Below, in pieces: positions 5,881-28,537 of a DNA stretch of 28,537 nucleotides (within the stretch, counting starts at the first letter, position 1; every line of letters starts with the position of its first letter). Source of the stretch: a virus. The translations under genes were made by a program, and so were the position numbers. The notes under the pieces were generated by a model, which had not been told where the DNA came from, searched no databases, and saw only the letters and a list, made by a program, of their open reading frames with translations. Location of the stretch: positions 1 through 28,537 of the IMG/VR virus record IMGVR_UViG_3300030329_000088; one strand, 5' to 3'.

Positions 5881-6579
5881 TTATCCGTTATAAATATAAT
5901 TGTTTTCTTGAATACTAGCTGTTATACTAGATGTTGCTGTTTCGCCTACACTTGAAAGCGTAACAACAGGATTTTCGGTATATCCGTTTCCTGCATAAGT
6001 AAGAGTTACACTATCTACAACACCACCTGATATAGTACATGTTGCAGTTGCAGGAGTTATACAGTCGCCTGTTATTGTTATAGTAGGAGCAGTTGGATAA
6101 CCTATACCTCCATAAGCTATATCTAAGCTGATAACTTCCCCACCATTTTGAGTATATTGCACCTCTTCTGTTCCGCTAAGTTCTGATACTAACATTTTGC
6201 CTTTTGTAACTAATCCTTGTACTACACCTCTCCTTATACTTGCAGGTAGTAATACTGCTAATTCAGTTGATGGTGCTTGTTCATTATCTAATGCTCCAAA
6301 AGCCCCCCATGTTACCTCATACACTTCATATTTCCAATACCCAGCAGGTTTTAAATCAACACGCCCTAAAAATACATCAGGTACAGCGTTGTAGCTAAAT
6401 GAGAATTTACTATACCTGTTGTATAATTGCTGCTCAGGATAAGCATATTGTACAGCACCACTCATATCATTAGTAAACTTAAACAAATATCTTGTATTAG
6501 TATCATTAGCAGTACCAATCCTCACATCCTGAGTTTGTATGTATGCATGAAAGCTAGAATTTGTTGTTGCGTGTATCAT
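5881..6579 (-). CDS. Virion structural protein with YGGxGY repeat tail
   Basis: The N-terminal half of this 232-residue protein (1-145) looks like a virion-specific domain (YRYSKFSFSYN and YWKYEVYEVTWGAFGALDN regions). The C-terminal part has two copies of a beta-structural repeat: AYGGIGYPTAPTITITG (about 155-171) and TYAGNGYTENPVVTLSS (about 194-210). Such repeats occur widely in phage tail and fibre proteins. It starts after an intergenic region containing a strong terminator (6631-6656) and a perfect CTATTATATAATAG palindrome (6591-6604), so it may head its own transcription unit. Function beyond structural is unresolved. Confidence 0.55.
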   Translation of the reverse strand: MIHATTNSSFHAYIQTQDVRIGTANDTNTRYLFKFTNDMSGAVQYAYPEQQLYNRYSKFSFSYNAVPDVFLGRVDLKPAGYWKYEVYEVTWGAFGALDNEQAPSTELAVLLPASIRRGVVQGLVTKGKMLVSELSGTEEVQYTQNGGEVISLDIAYGGIGYPTAPTITITGDCITPATATCTISGGVVDSVTLTYAGNGYTENPVVTLSSVGETATSSITASIQENNYIYNG

Positions 6580-6590
6580 AATTAGTGTAC

Positions 6591-6604
6591 CTATTATATA
6601 ATAG
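6591..6604 (-). promoter_or_regulatory. Late-gene motif CTATTATATAATAG (perfect palindrome)
   Basis: A perfect 14-base palindrome lies 11 bases before the ATG at 6579 and directly after a terminator. Related copies occur at 9031-9044, 9765-9778, 19183-19196 and 20759-20772. Weaker copies straddle gene junctions at 12186-12199 and 16990-17003. The best-conserved part, read in the direction of transcription, is CTATTATATAA. All clear copies precede late (terminase or structural) genes. It is a candidate phage-specific promoter or operator, or a translation signal. Confidence 0.5.
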
Positions 6605-6630
6605 AAAAAAGTCTTATTTATTTGCTAATA

Positions 6631-6656
6631 AAAGAAAAAGAGGGCATAAAGCCCTC
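6631..6656 (-). terminator. Rho-independent terminator after 193-residue gene
   Basis: The minus-strand transcript reads GAGGGC, a five-base loop, GCCCTC, then a T-rich tract (TTTTTCTTTT). The stem arms are 6651-6656 and 6640-6645. This is a textbook intrinsic terminator between the gene ending at 6693 and the gene starting at 6579. It should reduce read-through from the capsid genes into the fibre and portal genes. Confidence 0.75.
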
Positions 6657-6692
6657 CTAATCAAGAATATATATAAAAACTAATGATAAGTT

Positions 6693-7274
6693 TTATGATT
6701 TTACAATAGTACCCATTGTGAATCCTGCATTATCAAATGGTTCAGAGCTATAATCTGCTACCATTGCAAAAGGCTCTGCCTCCATGCCCGATAGTGTAAG
6801 ATTGTAACCGCCTCTATCACCGAAAGCAGCCCCAGTAACCATAGTTCCTGCATTAAGTTCCATTCCGTTAACAACCCCCATTCCAATAATTACATCATGT
6901 CCGTTTGTTAATTGTGCATTTAACTGACAAAATACAACTACTTTTGTTGAAGCTAATAATTTAATCTCGTGTTGGTCTTCTTTAGTTAGTCTGTTTAAAA
7001 TCACCTCTACTGTTGGCTCATAGAATACTGTTCCGTTTTCTCTACTACCTGTTATCGTATCAGTAGCTGATGCAACGCCTAATGGCATTGTGTAACGATA
7101 TAAAGTGTTAGTGCCCATCTCAATATCTGTTATTTCACCATTAGAAACTACAATACCTGTTCCATCAATAGGAGTGTCAAATTCATCATAAACTCCAAAA
7201 TAAACGTATTTGATGCCACCTGATACTCTATTACAATCAAGCCCTCTACCTTTAGTTAAATTAGTACATGCCAT
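6693..7274 (-). CDS. Putative tail tube-like virion protein
   Basis: The 193-residue protein begins MACTNLTKGRGLDCNR and continues with a strongly beta-type sequence (IKYVYFGVYDEF at 22-33, TVEVILNRL, KVVVFCQLNAQL, GYNLTLSGMEAEPFAMVADY near 154-173). The N-terminal TKGRGLDCNRVSGG pattern recurs in Bacteroidetes phage structural proteins as I remember them. Size, fold type and position directly after the major capsid gene suggest a tail tube or major decoration protein. A stable UUCG hairpin upstream and a terminator downstream isolate it as a high-level expression unit, as expected for a major virion protein. The function is not certain. Confidence 0.5.
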   Translation of the reverse strand: MACTNLTKGRGLDCNRVSGGIKYVYFGVYDEFDTPIDGTGIVVSNGEITDIEMGTNTLYRYTMPLGVASATDTITGSRENGTVFYEPTVEVILNRLTKEDQHEIKLLASTKVVVFCQLNAQLTNGHDVIIGMGVVNGMELNAGTMVTGAAFGDRGGYNLTLSGMEAEPFAMVADYSSEPFDNAGFTMGTIVKS

Positions 7275-7302
7275 ATTTTTTTATGTTTTAAAGGTTATAG
7301 AG

Positions 7303-7322
7303 GCGAGAGCCGAAGCCCTCGC
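7303..7322 (-). other. Stable UUCG-loop hairpin between capsid and tube-like genes
   Basis: On the minus strand GCGAGGGC-TTCG-GCTCTCGC forms an 8-bp stem (one G-U pair) closed by a UUCG tetraloop. It lies between the capsid stop (7341) and the next ATG (7274). No T-run follows, so it resembles an mRNA stabilising or processing hairpin more than a full terminator. Confidence 0.6.
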
Positions 7323-7340
7323 ATCTGTTAATTTAGTTTA

Positions 7341-8273
7341 TTATGATTGTCTAACAATGTCAGCACCAATACCAGTTTGAACACCACCTGAGTAACGAAC
7401 AACTAATCTCATGTTGTCGCTGCCATCTAGGTTAGCCATGTCCATTAAAGTAATTCTAGGGCCTGTTCCTGTTTCGCCAAAGTCAGAAACTAAATCAGTT
7501 CCCCAGTATAAGTTAGATTTTTGTGCTGCTACTAACTGATTGTCTAACATTCCAGGACAAACAGCAATTTTGTAACCCTCAAATACAGGCTCATAGTCGC
7601 CATTCATGTTGTAAGCATTAACATATCCTAATGTAGATACTGCTGAAACGTAGTAAGCGTAAGTTTTAGGATTCATGTAAATGTGTGTATCTTCTTTTGA
7701 TAAGATATTAGGAACATTAGCTGCCATGTCAGCAGTTAAAGTTTGTAAGTTAGCTATGATGTTAGCTGCTGAATAAGCACCTGATGCAGTTGATTGTACA
7801 ACTGTTGCATCAACACCTGGTAATAAGTAACCTACTGCAGTTCCTAAGAACCCTGTAAATTCTCCTGCATTACCTGCAACACCACTCCATATAGAGTTTT
7901 CTGTTGCATCTGCAATAGTGCTACCCATGTAAGATATTACATAGTCTGTAAAATCAGCAGGTGGCATACCCTCAGGTCCTGACATTTTAGCCGATTCCCA
8001 TCCTGAAACTAAGTTATTTTTGCAAAGGTCAATGTTTATCTGTAAAGCCTTTGGCTCAATAATTTTATCAGCGAGAGTTAAAGTCCCTGCATCTGTAAAA
8101 TCACATGTAGCATCTGCTACTAAATTTGCACCTGCAAAAGTTTGCAATGCACTCTTATAACGAACATTGTTTACTTGCGTTATAAAAGATAAAGATTTTG
8201 CCTCTTTCAAAGCGGCTGCTAGATATACCCCTGCGGATTTACCTGCATACGATTGATTTACTGTAAAAGCCAT
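7341..8273 (-). CDS. Major capsid protein (HK97-fold type)
   Basis: The 310-residue protein follows a scaffold gene and an XkdF-like protease gene, the usual head-assembly order. Its sequence has the balanced Ala/Gly/Thr-rich composition of a capsid protein, an N-terminal segment AGKSAGVYLAAALKEAKSL (10-28), a mid region with FTDYVISYMGSTIADATENSIW and a C-terminal beta-rich RLVVRYSGGVQTGIGADIV. It would form the icosahedral shell. The gene is bounded downstream by a stable hairpin, consistent with high expression. The family assignment comes from context and overall character rather than a single motif. Confidence 0.78.
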   Translation of the reverse strand: MAFTVNQSYAGKSAGVYLAAALKEAKSLSFITQVNNVRYKSALQTFAGANLVADATCDFTDAGTLTLADKIIEPKALQINIDLCKNNLVSGWESAKMSGPEGMPPADFTDYVISYMGSTIADATENSIWSGVAGNAGEFTGFLGTAVGYLLPGVDATVVQSTASGAYSAANIIANLQTLTADMAANVPNILSKEDTHIYMNPKTYAYYVSAVSTLGYVNAYNMNGDYEPVFEGYKIAVCPGMLDNQLVAAQKSNLYWGTDLVSDFGETGTGPRITLMDMANLDGSDNMRLVVRYSGGVQTGIGADIVRQS

Positions 8274-8299
8274 AATTTTTGTTTTTTATTTGTTAATTA

Positions 8300-9013
8300 T
8301 TATTTATTTAAGTTATATAAGAATCTTTCTTGTTTAGAAAGTTTATTGTATTCTTTTCTTGACAATACAGGTCTTGCTTTGTCAGAACTAAATTTGTTTG
8401 TGTTAATTGGAGCATCAGCAGGACTTGCCGATAATTCCGTTTTTAACTTTTCGTTTTCAGCTTTTAATTTTTTTATTTCATCTTCTGCTGAAAATTCTAC
8501 TACTTCTGTTGTTTTAATAGACTTTGGATTTGTAGATGGCTCTGCTGTTTCTTCTGCCATCTCTTCAACATCACCTGTTTCACCTATCTCTCTTTTAAGG
8601 TCGCTAACCGCATCCTCTAATTGCTTTATTCGCTTCTCCATGCCCTCCCAATCATAAACTGCTGCCTCATCATCATACTCATCCTTATCCTCTTCTTCTA
8701 ATTGAGTTTCTTCTGATGACATTTCTTCTTCTGTTACTTCTTCTTCCGTTTCTGATTCAATAACTTCTGAAACAACACCCTCTTCTTCTACTCTAAATGA
8801 TACTCCTGTATCTGTTTTGTAAGTTCCGATTGGAACAAGGATTGTCGTACCGTCTTCTAATAGTACTGAGATGTCTACACCTGCTTCTAATTCTTCAGCA
8901 GTAGAAACGAAAATAGTTCCACCATCTTCTGACTTAGATTGCCATCCTAATTTAATTTCTTCCTCAGTTTTGTTTAAACCAAGTGCTACTAATATTTGCT
9001 CTTTAATATCCAT
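8300..9013 (-). CDS. Capsid scaffolding protein
   Basis: The 237-residue protein is extremely acidic (repeated Glu around residues 75-115) with coiled-coil heptads near 120-145 (MEKRIKQLEDAVSDLKREI) and 175-192 (EIKKLKAENEKLKTEL), and a short basic C-terminus (RKEYNKLSKQERFLYNLNK). This is the standard architecture of phage scaffolding proteins, whose basic tail binds the capsid protein during procapsid assembly. It sits immediately upstream of the major capsid gene and downstream of the XkdF-like protease, which would remove it. A late motif (9031-9044) lies just upstream of the ATG. Confidence 0.82.
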   Translation of the reverse strand: MDIKEQILVALGLNKTEEEIKLGWQSKSEDGGTIFVSTAEELEAGVDISVLLEDGTTILVPIGTYKTDTGVSFRVEEEGVVSEVIESETEEEVTEEEMSSEETQLEEEDKDEYDDEAAVYDWEGMEKRIKQLEDAVSDLKREIGETGDVEEMAEETAEPSTNPKSIKTTEVVEFSAEDEIKKLKAENEKLKTELSASPADAPINTNKFSSDKARPVLSRKEYNKLSKQERFLYNLNK

Positions 9014-9030
9014 GATTAATGTTTTAGGTT

Positions 9031-9044
9031 CTGTTATATAATAG
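9031..9044 (-). promoter_or_regulatory. Late-gene motif copy before scaffold gene
   Basis: The minus strand reads CTATTATATAACAG, 13 of 14 matches to the palindrome at 6591-6604. It lies in the 33-base gap between the protease stop and the scaffold ATG (9013), leaving a 17-base leader. Confidence 0.45.
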
Positions 9045-9046
9045 AT

Positions 9047-9766
9047 TTATTTTGAGTTTGTTTGATTTTCACGTATTATCTCATTTAAAGCTGATAGTAT
9101 TTCTTCATCTGTTGGTGTTCTCTCTGACATTTCCTGCATACGATTTGTAAAATATCCCTCAATTGACAACCCACGTAAAGAGCCGCTTTTTATTTCTCTC
9201 CAAAGTTCATCATTTGTTATTTTCATTTTTACGAACCATGTGCCATTAGGCAAATCATAGCCATATAATTTAGATTTATCACTATCACCCTCTTTTATCC
9301 ATGATTCTACTGTTAGAACTCCTGATACCCTTTCGTTGTGTTCATGAGTAGCTTTATGATGGTTGTTATGTTTTAAATATAACTCACTAGCCTTGCGTAC
9401 TGTTTCAGGACTAAAGTAAACATAATACTCAGAGTCTGTATTAGGGTCGTATCTAAATATATGTTTGTTAGGTATTAATGCAGGACTAACTAGCATTCTT
9501 TTCTCTTCATCTACCTTAGCAAAGGTTAGATTATTTTTTTCTTTACCAAAAAACACAAAGTCTTGTTCTATTGCAGGAGAGTTTACTAAGCTAATAGCAT
9601 CAATAGCTAACTCCTCACTATCATCTGCAATTACAAGCTCTACAATTGATGTAGTTTTTTCGTAATAGTCTTTATTGTCTTGTTGGCATTCGGTTAACGT
9701 GTCATATTTACACTCACCAGTATTGCCGAATTTATATTTTCCGTTTTCGCATTTTTTACATGGCAT
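9047..9766 (-). CDS. XkdF-like prohead maturation protease
   Basis: The C-terminal half carries the XkdF pattern: THEHNERVSGVLTVESWI (140-157), LPNGTWFVKMKITNDELW (172-189) and SGSLRGLSIEGYF (194-206), with H141/H143 and S201 as likely catalytic His and Ser. Such proteases cleave scaffold and capsid proteins during head maturation. The N-terminal 30 residues hold four cysteines (C3, C6, C19, C27) in a compact possible zinc knuckle that is not part of the protease core. The gene lies just upstream of the scaffold and capsid genes. A late motif overlaps its start region (9765-9778). Confidence 0.75.
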   Translation of the reverse strand: MPCKKCENGKYKFGNTGECKYDTLTECQQDNKDYYEKTTSIVELVIADDSEELAIDAISLVNSPAIEQDFVFFGKEKNNLTFAKVDEEKRMLVSPALIPNKHIFRYDPNTDSEYYVYFSPETVRKASELYLKHNNHHKATHEHNERVSGVLTVESWIKEGDSDKSKLYGYDLPNGTWFVKMKITNDELWREIKSGSLRGLSIEGYFTNRMQEMSERTPTDEEILSALNEIIRENQTNSK

Positions 9767-20776: not shown

Positions 20777-21160
20777 CTACTTGAATTCATTTGGCAACAT
20801 TAATCTTATACCTAATTCTGTTAAAGCCCATATTCTTATTTGGTCTGCATATACTTCAAACTCTTTTGTGTTCATACGTGCTGTGCTGTTTACTGTTTGT
20901 AATCCTATCTGCCTTTCGTTTATCTCTATGCTTTGCCACTCGCTTGAAAACTTTACTTTTAAAGTATCATGCATTTCATCAGGAAAGTAACCTAACTCTT
21001 CTGCTAATGGTTGTACTATACATGACCAATAGTAATTGTTTTGCATATTGCTTCTATTGTTTCTTTGTTTCTTTACTTTTACTATATAATCAGTTCCTAA
21101 CTCTTTAAGATAATTAAAAAGCGATTGTTTATCCTGACTGCTTTTAATTACGAAATTCAT
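20777..21160 (-). CDS. NinB-like recombination protein
   Basis: The 127-residue protein has KVKKQRNNRSNMQNNYYWSCIVQPLAEELGYFPDEMHDTLKVKF (about 28-71), matching the NinB pattern of a basic patch, an N-x-YYW core and a helical segment. The C-terminus includes TARMNTKEFEVYADQIRIWALTELGIRLM. NinB binds single-stranded DNA and assists annealing or recombination in lambda. It ends the early/middle block and directly precedes the late motif and terS. The start overlaps the upstream HTH gene by 17 bases. Confidence 0.78.
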   Translation of the reverse strand: MNFVIKSSQDKQSLFNYLKELGTDYIVKVKKQRNNRSNMQNNYYWSCIVQPLAEELGYFPDEMHDTLKVKFSSEWQSIEINERQIGLQTVNSTARMNTKEFEVYADQIRIWALTELGIRLMLPNEFK

Positions 21161-21362
21161 ATTGTATATATTTGCGTGTTATACTATTTTCACGTCTTTG
21201 CTTAAACTCCTCTTTAAGTATTTTAGTAATCCTTGTATGTGCAACATTAAACTTATTTGTCATTTCTTTTAGGCTGTTTGCATTTGGATTGTTAAAGTAA
21301 TATTCAACAACCTTTTTTGCTAGTGCCTTTGGATTCTTTGGTATTCTAGGTTTTGTTTTCAT
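21144..21362 (-). CDS. Small HTH DNA-binding protein
   Basis: The 72-residue basic protein has a proline-rich start (MKTKPRIPKNPKALAKKVVEYYF) and a helix-turn-helix-like segment NSLKEMTNKFNVAHTRITKILKEEF (29-53), in which NVAHTRITKIL is the putative recognition helix. It may regulate transcription or bind the packaging region. It shares its first base with the last base of the upstream zinc-ribbon gene and lies near the late block, so a role in the switch to late expression is possible. No specific family is recognised. Confidence 0.55.
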   Translation of the reverse strand: MKTKPRIPKNPKALAKKVVEYYFNNPNANSLKEMTNKFNVAHTRITKILKEEFKQRRENSITRKYIQYEFRN

Positions 21363-21873: not shown

Positions 21874-21995
21874 TTTTTATTGTTTTTTATTTTATAATAC
21901 ATGTAACTAGCAAAAGGTGTTCCTAATAATAAAGTCAATAAGCTAGGATGCGGCTCTCCGCAAAGCCCTGTTATGTGTTTTAGTGCTTCAAGCAT
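21870..21995 (-). CDS. 41-residue membrane protein with GLCGEPH motif
   Basis: The ORF starts MLEALKHITGLCGEPHPSLL, continues with hydrophobic LTLLLGTPFASYMYYKI, and ends KNNKK. It has one likely membrane helix (19-33). The HITGLCGEPH pattern resembles small proteins found repeatedly in Bacteroidetes phages as I remember them. It overlaps the Cys-rich gene's end by 8 bases and ends in an ATGA overlap with the DUF3310 gene, so it is locked into the operon. Function is unknown. Confidence 0.6.
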   Translation of the reverse strand: MLEALKHITGLCGEPHPSLLTLLLGTPFASYMYYKIKNNKK

Positions 21996-22386
21996 ATTTA
22001 TTATATAATTTTTTAATTCCATCAAAGCATGTAGATATACAACTACCACAATTTGTAGTAGGGCTGTAATTAGTCATGTGTATAACATTGTAGGTTTCTA
22101 TCATTCTTTTTTTTGCTTGTACGTCTTTTGCCCTGCCTGTTTTTAAATCTTTCCACATGTCTAATATTTCATCTATTATTTCCGGTGGCAAATCATCAGG
22201 TGTTTCTATCTCAGTTGTTTTTTGCCAATACCCCTGCGGACACTCCATAGGTGCTAACCTGCATTTTAATTTCATAAAACATAAACAAACCTTGCAAGTT
22301 CCTGTTGGCTTAAAATAATAAACACATGACCTGCATATTTCTAGCCTATCCTCATAAACATTATTTGGCACAAAAAACTTATTCAT
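21988..22386 (-). CDS. Cys-rich zinc-binding protein
   Basis: The 132-residue protein has an N-terminal Cys cluster: CRSC (18-21), CKVCLC (31-36), C42 and C49, followed by Pro/Glu-rich and helical sequence and a C-terminal CGSCISTC near 113-120. The arrangement suggests at least one zinc site. Similar proteins are common between early and late genes in Bacteroidetes phages. It overlaps its upstream neighbour by 8 bases. Function is unknown. Confidence 0.55.
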   Translation of the reverse strand: MNKFFVPNNVYEDRLEICRSCVYYFKPTGTCKVCLCFMKLKCRLAPMECPQGYWQKTTEIETPDDLPPEIIDEILDMWKDLKTGRAKDVQAKKRMIETYNVIHMTNYSPTTNCGSCISTCFDGIKKLYNKYA

Positions 22387-22852
22387 AAAATAATTTATTG
22401 TTTCTTATATAAAACCCATTAGGCTTTAATATCTCTCTGCCATATAAATCATACATTTTATTGATTCCTATTTTGTCTTTGTGTTCTTTTATTCCAACAG
22501 TATTCATATTGTATATTACCCAACTATTACCATTAAATATTAACCAATCTTCTATACTACATACCATTACTAAACCATTTATATATATATACACATCATA
22601 ATTTAATTTTACTGTATCGGTTGGTGTAATTTGTGAAAAATAATAATTCATACCTTGCCCTGAATAACACACCCCATTAGCACAAGCTCCCCACCATACT
22701 TCCATAGAATCAGGGATATTAGCTATGTTTGATGTGTCAAGACCTACATTAAATACTTGGCTTTGGTTTGTCCAATATGTTATTGAATCACATAATTGTG
22801 CGGAGGTTTTTAATCCATATACTACAAATAAAAATAAAATTATTTTTTTCAT
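22379..22852 (-). CDS. Secreted protein with T9SS type A-like C-terminal tail
   Basis: The 157-residue protein has a clear signal peptide (KK then ILFLFVVYGLKTSA, cleavage near 18/19). The mature part is beta-type with paired Cys (C21 with the ACANGVCY and MVCSIED regions), resembling secreted proteins of marine Flavobacteriia. The last 25 residues contain MYDLYGREI and PNGFYIRNNKLFYE, reminiscent of the short type IX secretion C-terminal signal (Y-D-x-x-G-R and PxGxYI). It is shorter than a normal sorting domain. The start overlaps the sigma-like gene stop (ATGA). A surface or outer-membrane role such as superinfection exclusion is inference. Confidence 0.65.
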   Translation of the reverse strand: MKKIILFLFVVYGLKTSAQLCDSITYWTNQSQVFNVGLDTSNIANIPDSMEVWWGACANGVCYSGQGMNYYFSQITPTDTVKLNYDVYIYINGLVMVCSIEDWLIFNGNSWVIYNMNTVGIKEHKDKIGINKMYDLYGREILKPNGFYIRNNKLFYE

Positions 22853-23442
22853 TTATTTTTTTTATCAGCTAAATTGTTTTTTAAAATGTTTCTTACTTTG
22901 TCTATTGTTGTAAATATACTATTTCTGCTTATTTTTGTTTTTTTATGTATTTTATCTAGTGTGCTGCCCTCTTCATAATAGTAAAGCTTGAACAATTCCC
23001 TATCGTACCAATAATCTAATTTATCTAATTCCTTGTCTATTAATTCTAATCTTTCTAATTTTGTGTTATCTACCTCTTCATTCGGAATGTTATGTAAACT
23101 TTTATTAACATTATTATCAAAGTATATATTATCATCGTTATAGGTACAACTAAGAGTGTAGATAGAACTATCAATATGTGTGTAATACTTTTCATATTTA
23201 TAATAAAAATTGCTTCTAGTGCTTGTTAATGCTCTTCTTAAAGCAACCGCACCATATCTTGTAATTCCTAATATTCCATCCTTTTCATATATGCCCTTTA
23301 AAATATCAGGATTCATTTGTAAAAAATAAAGCATTAATTCCTGCACCGCTTCATTTACTTTGTTTTCATCTGTTGTTAATCCATAAGCCATTGTTCTAAA
23401 CTTATCTGTTAATTTAGATATTTCTAAATATATCTTAGTCAT
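22849..23442 (-). CDS. Sigma-factor-like protein
   Basis: The 197-residue protein has helical N-terminal sequence (6-80) with KVNEAVQELMLYFLQMNP (28-45), resembling sigma region 2 helices, an Asn/Asp-rich linker (100-125), and a C-terminal region-4-like helix-turn-helix: DRELFKLYYYEEGSTLDKIHKKTKISRNSIFTTIDKVRNIL (147-187). It may redirect host RNA polymerase to late genes. Similar proteins are common in Bacteroidetes phages, but the sigma identity is an inference. ATG at 23442 was preferred to the TTG at 23454 because it gives an 8-base overlap like its neighbours. It ends in ATGA with the secreted-protein gene. Confidence 0.5.
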   Translation of the reverse strand: MTKIYLEISKLTDKFRTMAYGLTTDENKVNEAVQELMLYFLQMNPDILKGIYEKDGILGITRYGAVALRRALTSTRSNFYYKYEKYYTHIDSSIYTLSCTYNDDNIYFDNNVNKSLHNIPNEEVDNTKLERLELIDKELDKLDYWYDRELFKLYYYEEGSTLDKIHKKTKISRNSIFTTIDKVRNILKNNLADKKNK

Positions 23443-23791
23443 GTTTAGGCTCAACTCTATTAAGCTTTTCTACAGCCTCATGTAGCATTTCATCTAACAC
23501 AACTCTATATGCTCTAACTACTGCCGCATTAGTCTTTGTTTCAACACCTGCAAAAAAGCCATTTGTTGCTACTGATAAGTTAATTGGAATAATCATAATC
23601 CAATCGTAAAAGTTGTTTTCATGTGTTCCATTTCCATAATTATTTGAGTACTCTATAATCACATCTACAACTTCTAAATAATTATTGTATTTTGCCTTAG
23701 TTGCAACCTCTTGGGCAAATTGTTTGCACATTGTAATATAAACATCTATAATAGATTTGTGTTCTTCATTTGCGTATATTGGTATGTGCAT
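23435..23791 (-). CDS. Conserved-type early protein (unknown)
   Basis: The 118-residue protein is mainly helical (HKSIIDVYITMCKQFAQEVATKAKYNNYLEVVDVII, 11-46; NAAVVRAYRVVLDEMLHEAVEKLNRV, about 88-113), with an aromatic central strand FYDWIMIIPINLSV. No catalytic motif or signal is seen. Just upstream is a -7-like TAAATTTG (23803-23796), but its TTG lies only 15 bases away, so a promoter is doubtful. Lying between NinG and the sigma-like gene, it may act in DNA metabolism, but that is unsupported. Confidence 0.5.
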   Translation of the reverse strand: MHIPIYANEEHKSIIDVYITMCKQFAQEVATKAKYNNYLEVVDVIIEYSNNYGNGTHENNFYDWIMIIPINLSVATNGFFAGVETKTNAAVVRAYRVVLDEMLHEAVEKLNRVEPKHD

Positions 23792-27337: not shown

Positions 27338-27595
27338 TTAGTAGTTTAATTGTATGTGAAGCAACATAGAACAAATAGTAGCTGCAATTAATACACTTGT
27401 TATTAGCCAAACAGGTATCTTATTTAAGTAATTAATTTCTTCAATATAATAATCATCTATCATATTACGTTTTCCATACTTATCCCAATTTGACATTTGA
27501 GTTTTGCTGTAAGAAAAAAATATATCCTTTTCTTGTTGATTCATAATTTGCGTGTTACCGCTTACTTTGTTTGTAATTTTGTAATTTGTTTTCAT
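27338..27595 (-). CDS. Tail-anchored 85-residue early membrane protein
   Basis: The protein has a hydrophilic N-terminal half (MKTNYKITNKVSGNTQIMNQ) with charged helices and a single C-terminal membrane segment, PVWLITSVLIAATICSMLLHI (about 61-81), so it should be tail-anchored in the inner membrane. It is the first gene after a strong host-type promoter (27620-27650) with a leader of only about 20 bases, so it is probably the first protein made. Immediate-early membrane proteins often block superinfection or lysis. That role is inference. The left copy (1-172) is nearly identical where present. Confidence 0.65.
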   Translation of the reverse strand: MKTNYKITNKVSGNTQIMNQQEKDIFFSYSKTQMSNWDKYGKRNMIDDYYIEEINYLNKIPVWLITSVLIAATICSMLLHIQLNY

Positions 27596-27619
27596 TTTTC
27601 TTTGTTTTTAATTATGGTA

Positions 27620-27650
27620 CAAAAATACAACAAAAAATGATATAAACAAG
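27620..27650 (-). promoter_or_regulatory. Early promoter, Bacteroidetes type
   Basis: On the minus strand there is CTTG (27650-27647), a 19-base spacer, and TATTTTTG (27627-27620). This fits TTG-N19-TAnnTTTG exactly. Transcription would start near 27613 and reach the ATG at 27595 after about 20 bases, driving the whole early operon. Confidence 0.8.
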
Positions 27651-27791
27651 TTTATTCACAAAAAATATTAAAAGAAATGCTTTTATATCTAGTAAATTTT
27701 TTTAAAAAAACTTATAAATTAAGCAAAAGAATGGTAAAAATGATTAAAAAATACAATATAAATACACGTATATTTGTTTGTTTTTCGGTCA

Positions 27792-28523
27792 TTATAGCGG
27801 CATTAATAGATTAATAGGTAGTGTTCCGTTATTAAGTATGACTGCACAACCAATAGCAGGTTTTTTACCTGCTCTTGCGTAATTAAAACTTAGATTTGTA
27901 AAATTTATGCCTGTTCCAACCTGAGTTCCAAACACCCTAAAATTTCTACCTACATAATGCTCTGTATAACATTGAGTATGTAGATGCCCTTGTACTGTAT
28001 TCATCATATCAGCCCTGCATTTTGTTCTAGCGGTTCCGCCCTCACCATGCACATATTGCACCCCATCTTGCACATATCTTTCTACAAAATCCCAATTAGG
28101 AGTTCCTAATACTTCGCTATAAGACTTTAACCAAGCTGAGGGTATTCCGCCTGTCATAGCTTTTCTAGCAGCCATTCTATCATGGTTTCCTATAATAACT
28201 TTTGTTCCAACTTCGTTAAATTCATTATACCAACGCTGCACTCTTTTTATAGCAAAGTTAAGTTCATCACCTGCTGATGGTAAATCAGGATTCTGCTCAT
28301 GATACGAATATCCTGCGGAATCTACCACATCACCAATTAAGATTACCTGATTACAATTATATGTATTGTATTGTTCTACAACCCATGGCAAATATTCATC
28401 TAAATCCCAAGGGCAATGAAGGTCACCGATAACTAGGACATTCCTAGCCTCGGTTTCCCTCATTTTTTCAATTACCGCTATCTCATGCGGCTTTAATCTG
28501 TACCTGTTATTACTTCTTTGCAC
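27792..28523 (-). CDS. Metallophosphoesterase (calcineurin-like), copy B
   Basis: The 243-residue allele of the 614-1339 gene has intact metal-binding motifs GDLH (33-36), GDVVDS (64-69), GNHDR, HGEGG and GHLHTQC. It hydrolyses phosphoester bonds; the substrate is unknown. The first 23 residues, the GHLH region and the last eight residues are identical to copy A, but the core between them differs widely while keeping catalytic residues. Both alleles therefore appear functional and under selection. It overlaps the truncated holin-like gene by 14 bases, as in the left copy. Its stop precedes the early promoter region. Confidence 0.88.
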   Translation of the reverse strand: MQRSNNRYRLKPHEIAVIEKMRETEARNVLVIGDLHCPWDLDEYLPWVVEQYNTYNCNQVILIGDVVDSAGYSYHEQNPDLPSAGDELNFAIKRVQRWYNEFNEVGTKVIIGNHDRMAARKAMTGGIPSAWLKSYSEVLGTPNWDFVERYVQDGVQYVHGEGGTARTKCRADMMNTVQGHLHTQCYTEHYVGRNFRVFGTQVGTGINFTNLSFNYARAGKKPAIGCAVILNNGTLPINLLMPL

Positions 28524-28537
28524 TATCAGCTATACCC
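28510..28537 (-). CDS. Holin-like protein, last eight codons (cut by window edge)
   Basis: The final residues GIADSAKK plus stop are identical to the end of the gene at 1326-1508. The rest lies outside the window. Its presence shows that the repeat continues into this gene and supports a circular or permuted genome. Confidence 0.75.

Follow-up and report, generated by a model that had tools for sequence, protein, structure and literature searches.

The window analyzed here comprises the 28,537 bases recorded for a small virus, probably of uncultured Bacteroidota-type bacteria, and carries portal, large terminase, NinG, NinB, and replication initiator genes. On its minus strand lies an open reading frame of 157 amino acids with an ATG start, whose translation reads MKKIILFLFVVYGLKTSAQLCDS...NTVGIKEHKDKIGINKMYDLYGREILKPNGFYIRNNKLFYE and confirms the gene as the sequence-only reading had placed it (Table 1). 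The ATGA overlap with the preceding gene which that reading had described is correct. The preceding gene had been called sigma-like, a label without profile support: its product had no Pfam match, and its sole PHROG match was weak (E value of 0.006) and of unknown function. The product of the downstream gene matched PHROG 13558 at an E value of 4e-13 and PF19668 slightly below its cut-off. NinG, replication initiator, NinB, and DUF3310 genes lie near the 157-aa gene and support the early/middle operon setting proposed for it. The ends of the record are imperfectly repeated, positions 1-190 matching 27424-27613 at 98% and positions 437-1353 matching 27615-28537 at 75%, with a calcineurin-like phosphoesterase gene in each copy (1-1353 and 27424-28537). 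The repeats could reflect tandem paralogues, if the map is circular, or else the assembly joined two strain variants.

Table 1. Features of the 157-aa gene, its product, and the two adjoining genes (window coordinates)
Feature	Position	Strand	Description or basis
Secreted-protein gene, 157 aa	22379..22852 (stop included)	-	ORF and translation, 55-member family, dN/dS
Upstream gene, ATGA overlap (gap -4)	22849..23454	-	201 aa, possible C-terminal helix-turn-helix, no recognised family
Downstream gene, 8-base overlap	21988..22386	-	132 aa, cysteine-rich, DUF6171-like
Predicted Sec signal peptide, residues 1-18, cleavage A18/Q19	22799..22852	-	Sequence, Q-rule, no nonsynonymous change
Mature body, Ig/FnIII-like beta-sandwich with conserved Cys, residues 19-118	22499..22798	-	AlphaFold2, Foldseek
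Short T9SS-type C-terminal domain, residues 120-157, 38 aa	22382..22495	-	Conservation, motif counts, profile tests
NTVGI, putative PorU cleavage motif in disordered linker, residues 117-121	22490..22504	-	pLDDT, likeness to P. intermedia consensus
Motif B, YDLYGRE, residues 134-140	22433..22453	-	Counts in 55 members
Motif D, GFYI, residues 146-149	22406..22417	-	Y148 and I149 invariant in 55 members
Motif E, RNNKLFYE, residues 150-157	22382..22405	-	Counts in 55 members

Relatives were gathered by scanning IMG/VR with the protein and with growing alignments (contigs up to 105 kb). In addition, an alignment of the tail only was run against IMG/VR (contigs up to 166 kb) and gave 100 matching stretches, from which 80 loci were kept; some of these are repeats of one contig, and a non-redundant set of 55 was aligned. 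The family comprises at least 55 distinct members, nearly all of them in IMG/VR phage contigs. Among isolated phage genomes, tblastn with the window protein and three relatives found no relative, and tblastn with the upstream gene found nothing. One family gene is carried by a 29.0-kb contig (L023, PBGL02000003.1) of a MAG titled Euryarchaeota; this contig has the size of whole phage records and is probably a mis-binned phage.

The N terminus of the protein consists of a KK n-region, a strongly hydrophobic core (mean Kyte-Doolittle value of 2.97 over residues 4 to 14), and a TSA/Q cleavage site, in agreement with the signal peptide noted in the sequence-only reading. The site agrees with the Bacteroidetes Q-rule, according to which a glutamine directly follows the signal peptidase cut (PMC5837995). 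An alanine or serine followed by this glutamine was found in 47 of the 51 N-terminally complete relatives, compared to a mean of 16.7 and a maximum of 27 after shuffling. A lipoprotein was also considered and rejected: a leucine precedes C21, and the relatives likewise have non-lipobox residues at this position.

In AlphaFold2 models of two family members, the Ig/FnIII-like body and the small stranded tail were predicted with confidence, and the linker between them with low confidence. Body blocks mostly reached a pLDDT of 81 to 95, and this outcome was repeated with another family member placed first. Foldseek returned only weak matches to FnIII/Ig domains from the PDB. In BFVD, the single true relative was A0A218ML00, an uncharacterised protein from an uncultured virus, and there were weak structural matches to T4-like outer capsid proteins. 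Because the PDB matches are weak and the sole BFVD relative is uncharacterised, the fold assigns no function. Pfam, NCBIfam, and PHROGs held no family for the protein, and scans of the individual members gave scattered chance matches only.

The C-terminal sequence of the protein is INKMYDLYGREILKPNGFYIRNNKLFYE. The YDLYGRE...PNGFYI tail quoted in the sequence-only reading is thus present, and a scan of six-frame segments of at least 40 aa identified this ORF as the only carrier of such a motif in the window. A search with C-terminal domain profiles of the type IX secretion system (T9SS), proposed as a check, gave no support: none of the 55 members matched TIGR04183 or PF18962 at E values up to 1, and the window protein did not match them up to an E value of 10. 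These models describe a seven-stranded Ig-like C-terminal domain (CTD) of about 70 aa or more, whereas the tail has 38 aa and only short predicted strands. It shares with this type A domain motif B (IYDLLGRE), the GxY, and a basic C terminus, in identical order, but lacks the PNP start and some 30 to 40 residues.

The anatomy of the tail largely matches that of the short CTDs described in Prevotella intermedia. These have a PT/GI cleavage consensus with a conserved isoleucine, a motif B with an invariant glycine, a strong tyrosine, and a basic residue after the glycine, a motif D made of GxY and then isoleucine, and a motif E with one or two basic residues, and they span 40 to 51 (or 43 to 55) aa from the cleavage motif to the C terminus (PMC11969387). 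Besides the N-terminal Sec signal peptide indicated by sequence, hydrophobic core, and Q-rule pattern, the phage family has motif B in 55/55 members, its tyrosine in 51/55, and the basic residue after the glycine in 52/55. In motif D, the tyrosine and isoleucine are invariant; most relatives read GxxYI there, and at least five lack the glycine. Motif E harbors at least one basic residue in all 55 members and at least two in 54. A cleavage-like motif, TVGI in the window, has a similar counterpart in 48/55 members. The distance from this motif to the C terminus is 33 to 46 aa in the family (median, 42.5), and the 38 aa of the window protein fall slightly under the published 40 to 51. As in P. 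intermedia, the motifs follow in order and with tight spacing. A disordered linker (pLDDT below 50 at residues 118 to 124) leads to a small stranded tail, modeled as a hairpin (147-150/153-156) with two-residue bridges at 133-134 and 140-141 and similar in the second model, an arrangement that resembles the linker and three-stranded tail of the P. intermedia CTDs. The P. intermedia CTDs differ in being slightly longer and in belonging to one oral bacterium, compared to phages and aquatic Bacteroidota here, where cleavage is moreover only putative. Since the targeting signal of HBP35 lies within its last 22 residues (PMC11285876), a signal of 38 residues is feasible.

Independent results also tie the sequence of the tail to that of T9SS tails. 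A tail-only profile matched in 25 of 296 Bacteroidota genomes and in 3 of 293 genomes of a control phylum (that of the MAG titled Euryarchaeota), a contrast that is somewhat overstated because the control genomes are smaller. Of the control matches, one came from a phage contig of the family itself, and two were stray matches that did not cover the start of motif B. Among the loci read, the Bacteroidota matches outside one genome (G001, see below) were nearly all canonical YPNPFNP...IYDLLGRE...GxY T9SS tails, aligned at motif B. A first hhalign comparison (94.6%) was set aside as circular, its T9SS tails having been picked by the phage profile, and the figure to cite is therefore the unbiased repeat, for which T9SS tails were chosen by TIGR04183 only, without the phage profile. 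There, motif B was in register with a score of 21.0 and a probability of 40%; over 200 shuffles of the columns the highest score was 17.8, and the reversed profile scored 8.5. Against short tails of hosts, hhalign gave 95.7%, a value that is partly circular on the same account. Finally, the same tail was found on unrelated bodies, including those of Omp28 proteins on two contigs (L069, above the Pfam cut-off, and L115, slightly below it).

One relative (L024) is chromosomal. It lies between two other secreted proteins, which end in a different short tail (LGRET...LFYIYNDGTVEKK), and is also flanked by ordinary chromosomal genes; the cluster (positions 6478-9289) comprises three secreted proteins and two short-tail types, in a genome of 1.5 Mb. 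This genome, G001, encodes SprA, 45 TIGR04183 tails, and about 20 proteins with an LGRET...LFYIYNDGTVEKK-like tail, of which those tested stayed under the NCBIfam cut-off. In 2025, P. intermedia was described as the sole species with both long and short CTDs (PMC11969387); judging from sequence, the L024 genome appears to combine both as well.

Viral records carrying family members or tail-bearing proteins can also encode canonical tails: six of them (G297, G300, G301, G310, G321, and G324) had TIGR04183 tails above the cut-off, two of which were confirmed with PF18962. In the sister phages L178, L179, L180, and L183, canonical T9SS tails were observed on proteins of 1,050 to 1,150 aa, possibly surface or tail-fibre related, and in L178 to L180 a further exported protein of about 355 aa adjoins the canonical-tail protein.

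We consider it likely that the 157-aa protein is a phage-made short-CTD cargo of the host T9SS, shown on the host surface during infection. A Sec signal peptide by itself accounts for periplasmic export, and with no curated T9SS profile matching, the product could instead be a periplasmic or outer-membrane phage protein with a merely T9SS-like tail, acting inside the envelope, for example in lysis or in a block of DNA entry. This seems unlikely to us, as the same tail occurs on unrelated bodies, the tail profile picks out T9SS tails, and the gene is grouped with those of DNA metabolism and apart from those for lysis.

Both the gene and its tail are conserved. Among close relatives, whole-gene dN/dS was 0.06 to 0.28, and the signal peptide showed no amino acid change at all. 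Tail dN/dS was about 0.0 to 0.2 in every comparison of close relatives and at most 0.06 where the window gene was included. Purifying selection is strongest in these two segments, and no other part of the protein is as well conserved across the family alignments as the tail. These low values indicate that the tail is maintained rather than decaying, and they refute the suggestion that the sorting signal is degenerate. In most comparisons, dN/dS was higher in the body than in the tail. Such a pattern would suit a decoy cargo, whose tail occupies PorV or the translocon and thereby lowers the display of host T9SS adhesins or receptors, secretion being the target and the body mattering little; short CTDs are indeed predicted to bind PorV in the same manner as long ones (PMC11969387). 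The body is, however, a conserved folded domain with conserved Cys and is itself under purifying selection, and we regard a decoy as improbable compared to a displayed cargo.

In phages of different kinds, the gene keeps company with genes of DNA metabolism and is usually tightly packed with its neighbors, which include genes for a single-strand DNA-binding protein, a UvsX-like recombinase, GroEL, thymidylate synthase, polynucleotide kinase, and a DUF3310/nucleotide-kinase-like protein. That these sets differ between groups suggests transfer of the gene among phage types, with nonstructural genes remaining its neighbors. In two contigs (L078, 1975-3615; L046, 4481-5476), the neighbors have the sequence appearance of a phage GroEL and a cysteine-synthase-like protein (PHROG function unknown). 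In two others (L013, 1286-1957; L014, 1660-2331), the secreted protein shares one open frame, with no methionine in between, with an upstream helix-turn-helix-like gene that resembles window positions 21144-21362, which represents either a gene fusion or initiation at a codon other than ATG. Phage virions commonly bear Ig-like folds, and together with the weak capsid protein matches this could point to a virion component such as an Ig-like decoration protein. Such a role is very improbable, as the protein has an N-terminal signal peptide and several phage types keep its gene with those for replication, nucleotide, and recombination functions.

Display of the protein by the host T9SS can be pictured as follows. 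The gene would be transcribed with the replication and recombination genes during infection, as its order among them suggests. Export first by Sec and then by the T9SS is probable from the predicted signals: Sec would export the protein, and signal peptidase I would expose the N-terminal glutamine. If the published short-CTD mechanism applies, the motif B loop and motifs D and E of the tail would bind the PorV shuttle, the protein would cross the outer membrane via SprA, and the sortase PorU would cut in the NTVGI linker and link the Ig-like body to surface polysaccharide. The T9SS export proposed from the sequence is the best-supported route, with the qualification that the signal fits a separately described, shorter class and that existing T9SS profiles do not match it. 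Given a signal of this class, infection probably leaves the cell with a viral protein exposed on its surface.

The displayed Ig-like domain would alter the surface of the infected cell. What this would achieve is speculative, with superinfection exclusion, receptor masking, a change in gliding, and jamming of the T9SS as candidates. The sequence-only reading named a block of superinfection and changes in adsorption or gliding, all of which are plausible. We tentatively take superinfection exclusion or receptor masking as the most likely purpose. Also tentative is a broader scenario in which phages of different types that infect aquatic Bacteroidota have a mobile cassette in common. By way of the host T9SS, the cassette would coat the infected cell with an Ig-like phage protein, using a short signal missed by annotation pipelines, and this display would exclude competing phages.

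Phage T9SS cargo is in itself already published. For Cryophage, such cargo was proposed in the form of enzymes and a PA14-domain protein, with superinfection exclusion as a suggested role (PMC7468147), and crAss-like phages harbor BACON ORFs with T9SS domains (PMC6949934). Those proteins are likewise phage encoded and predicted to use the host T9SS, but they are reported to carry recognised sorting domains, whereas here a small single-domain protein carries a short tail missed by profiles. Phages of Porphyromonas gingivalis encode Q-rule secreted proteins suggested to modify the host surface; these share the Bacteroidetes-type signal peptide, and the portions of that article searched mention no T9SS tail (PMC10367356). 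What sets the present case apart is the small Ig-like cargo, its short, profile-missed signal, and its recurrence in many uncultured phages.

Earlier proposals that phages use the T9SS concern a few large phages and were based on tails that profiles recognise. Since a compact protein of 157 aa, encoded in a phage record of about 28.5 kb, and its relatives in many other records carry a signal unseen by curated models, phage T9SS cargo is probably undercounted. Short CTDs, reported so far only from P. intermedia, are extended to aquatic Bacteroidota and their phages, and the tail bears on the minimal size of a T9SS signal and on the use of surface display by phages.
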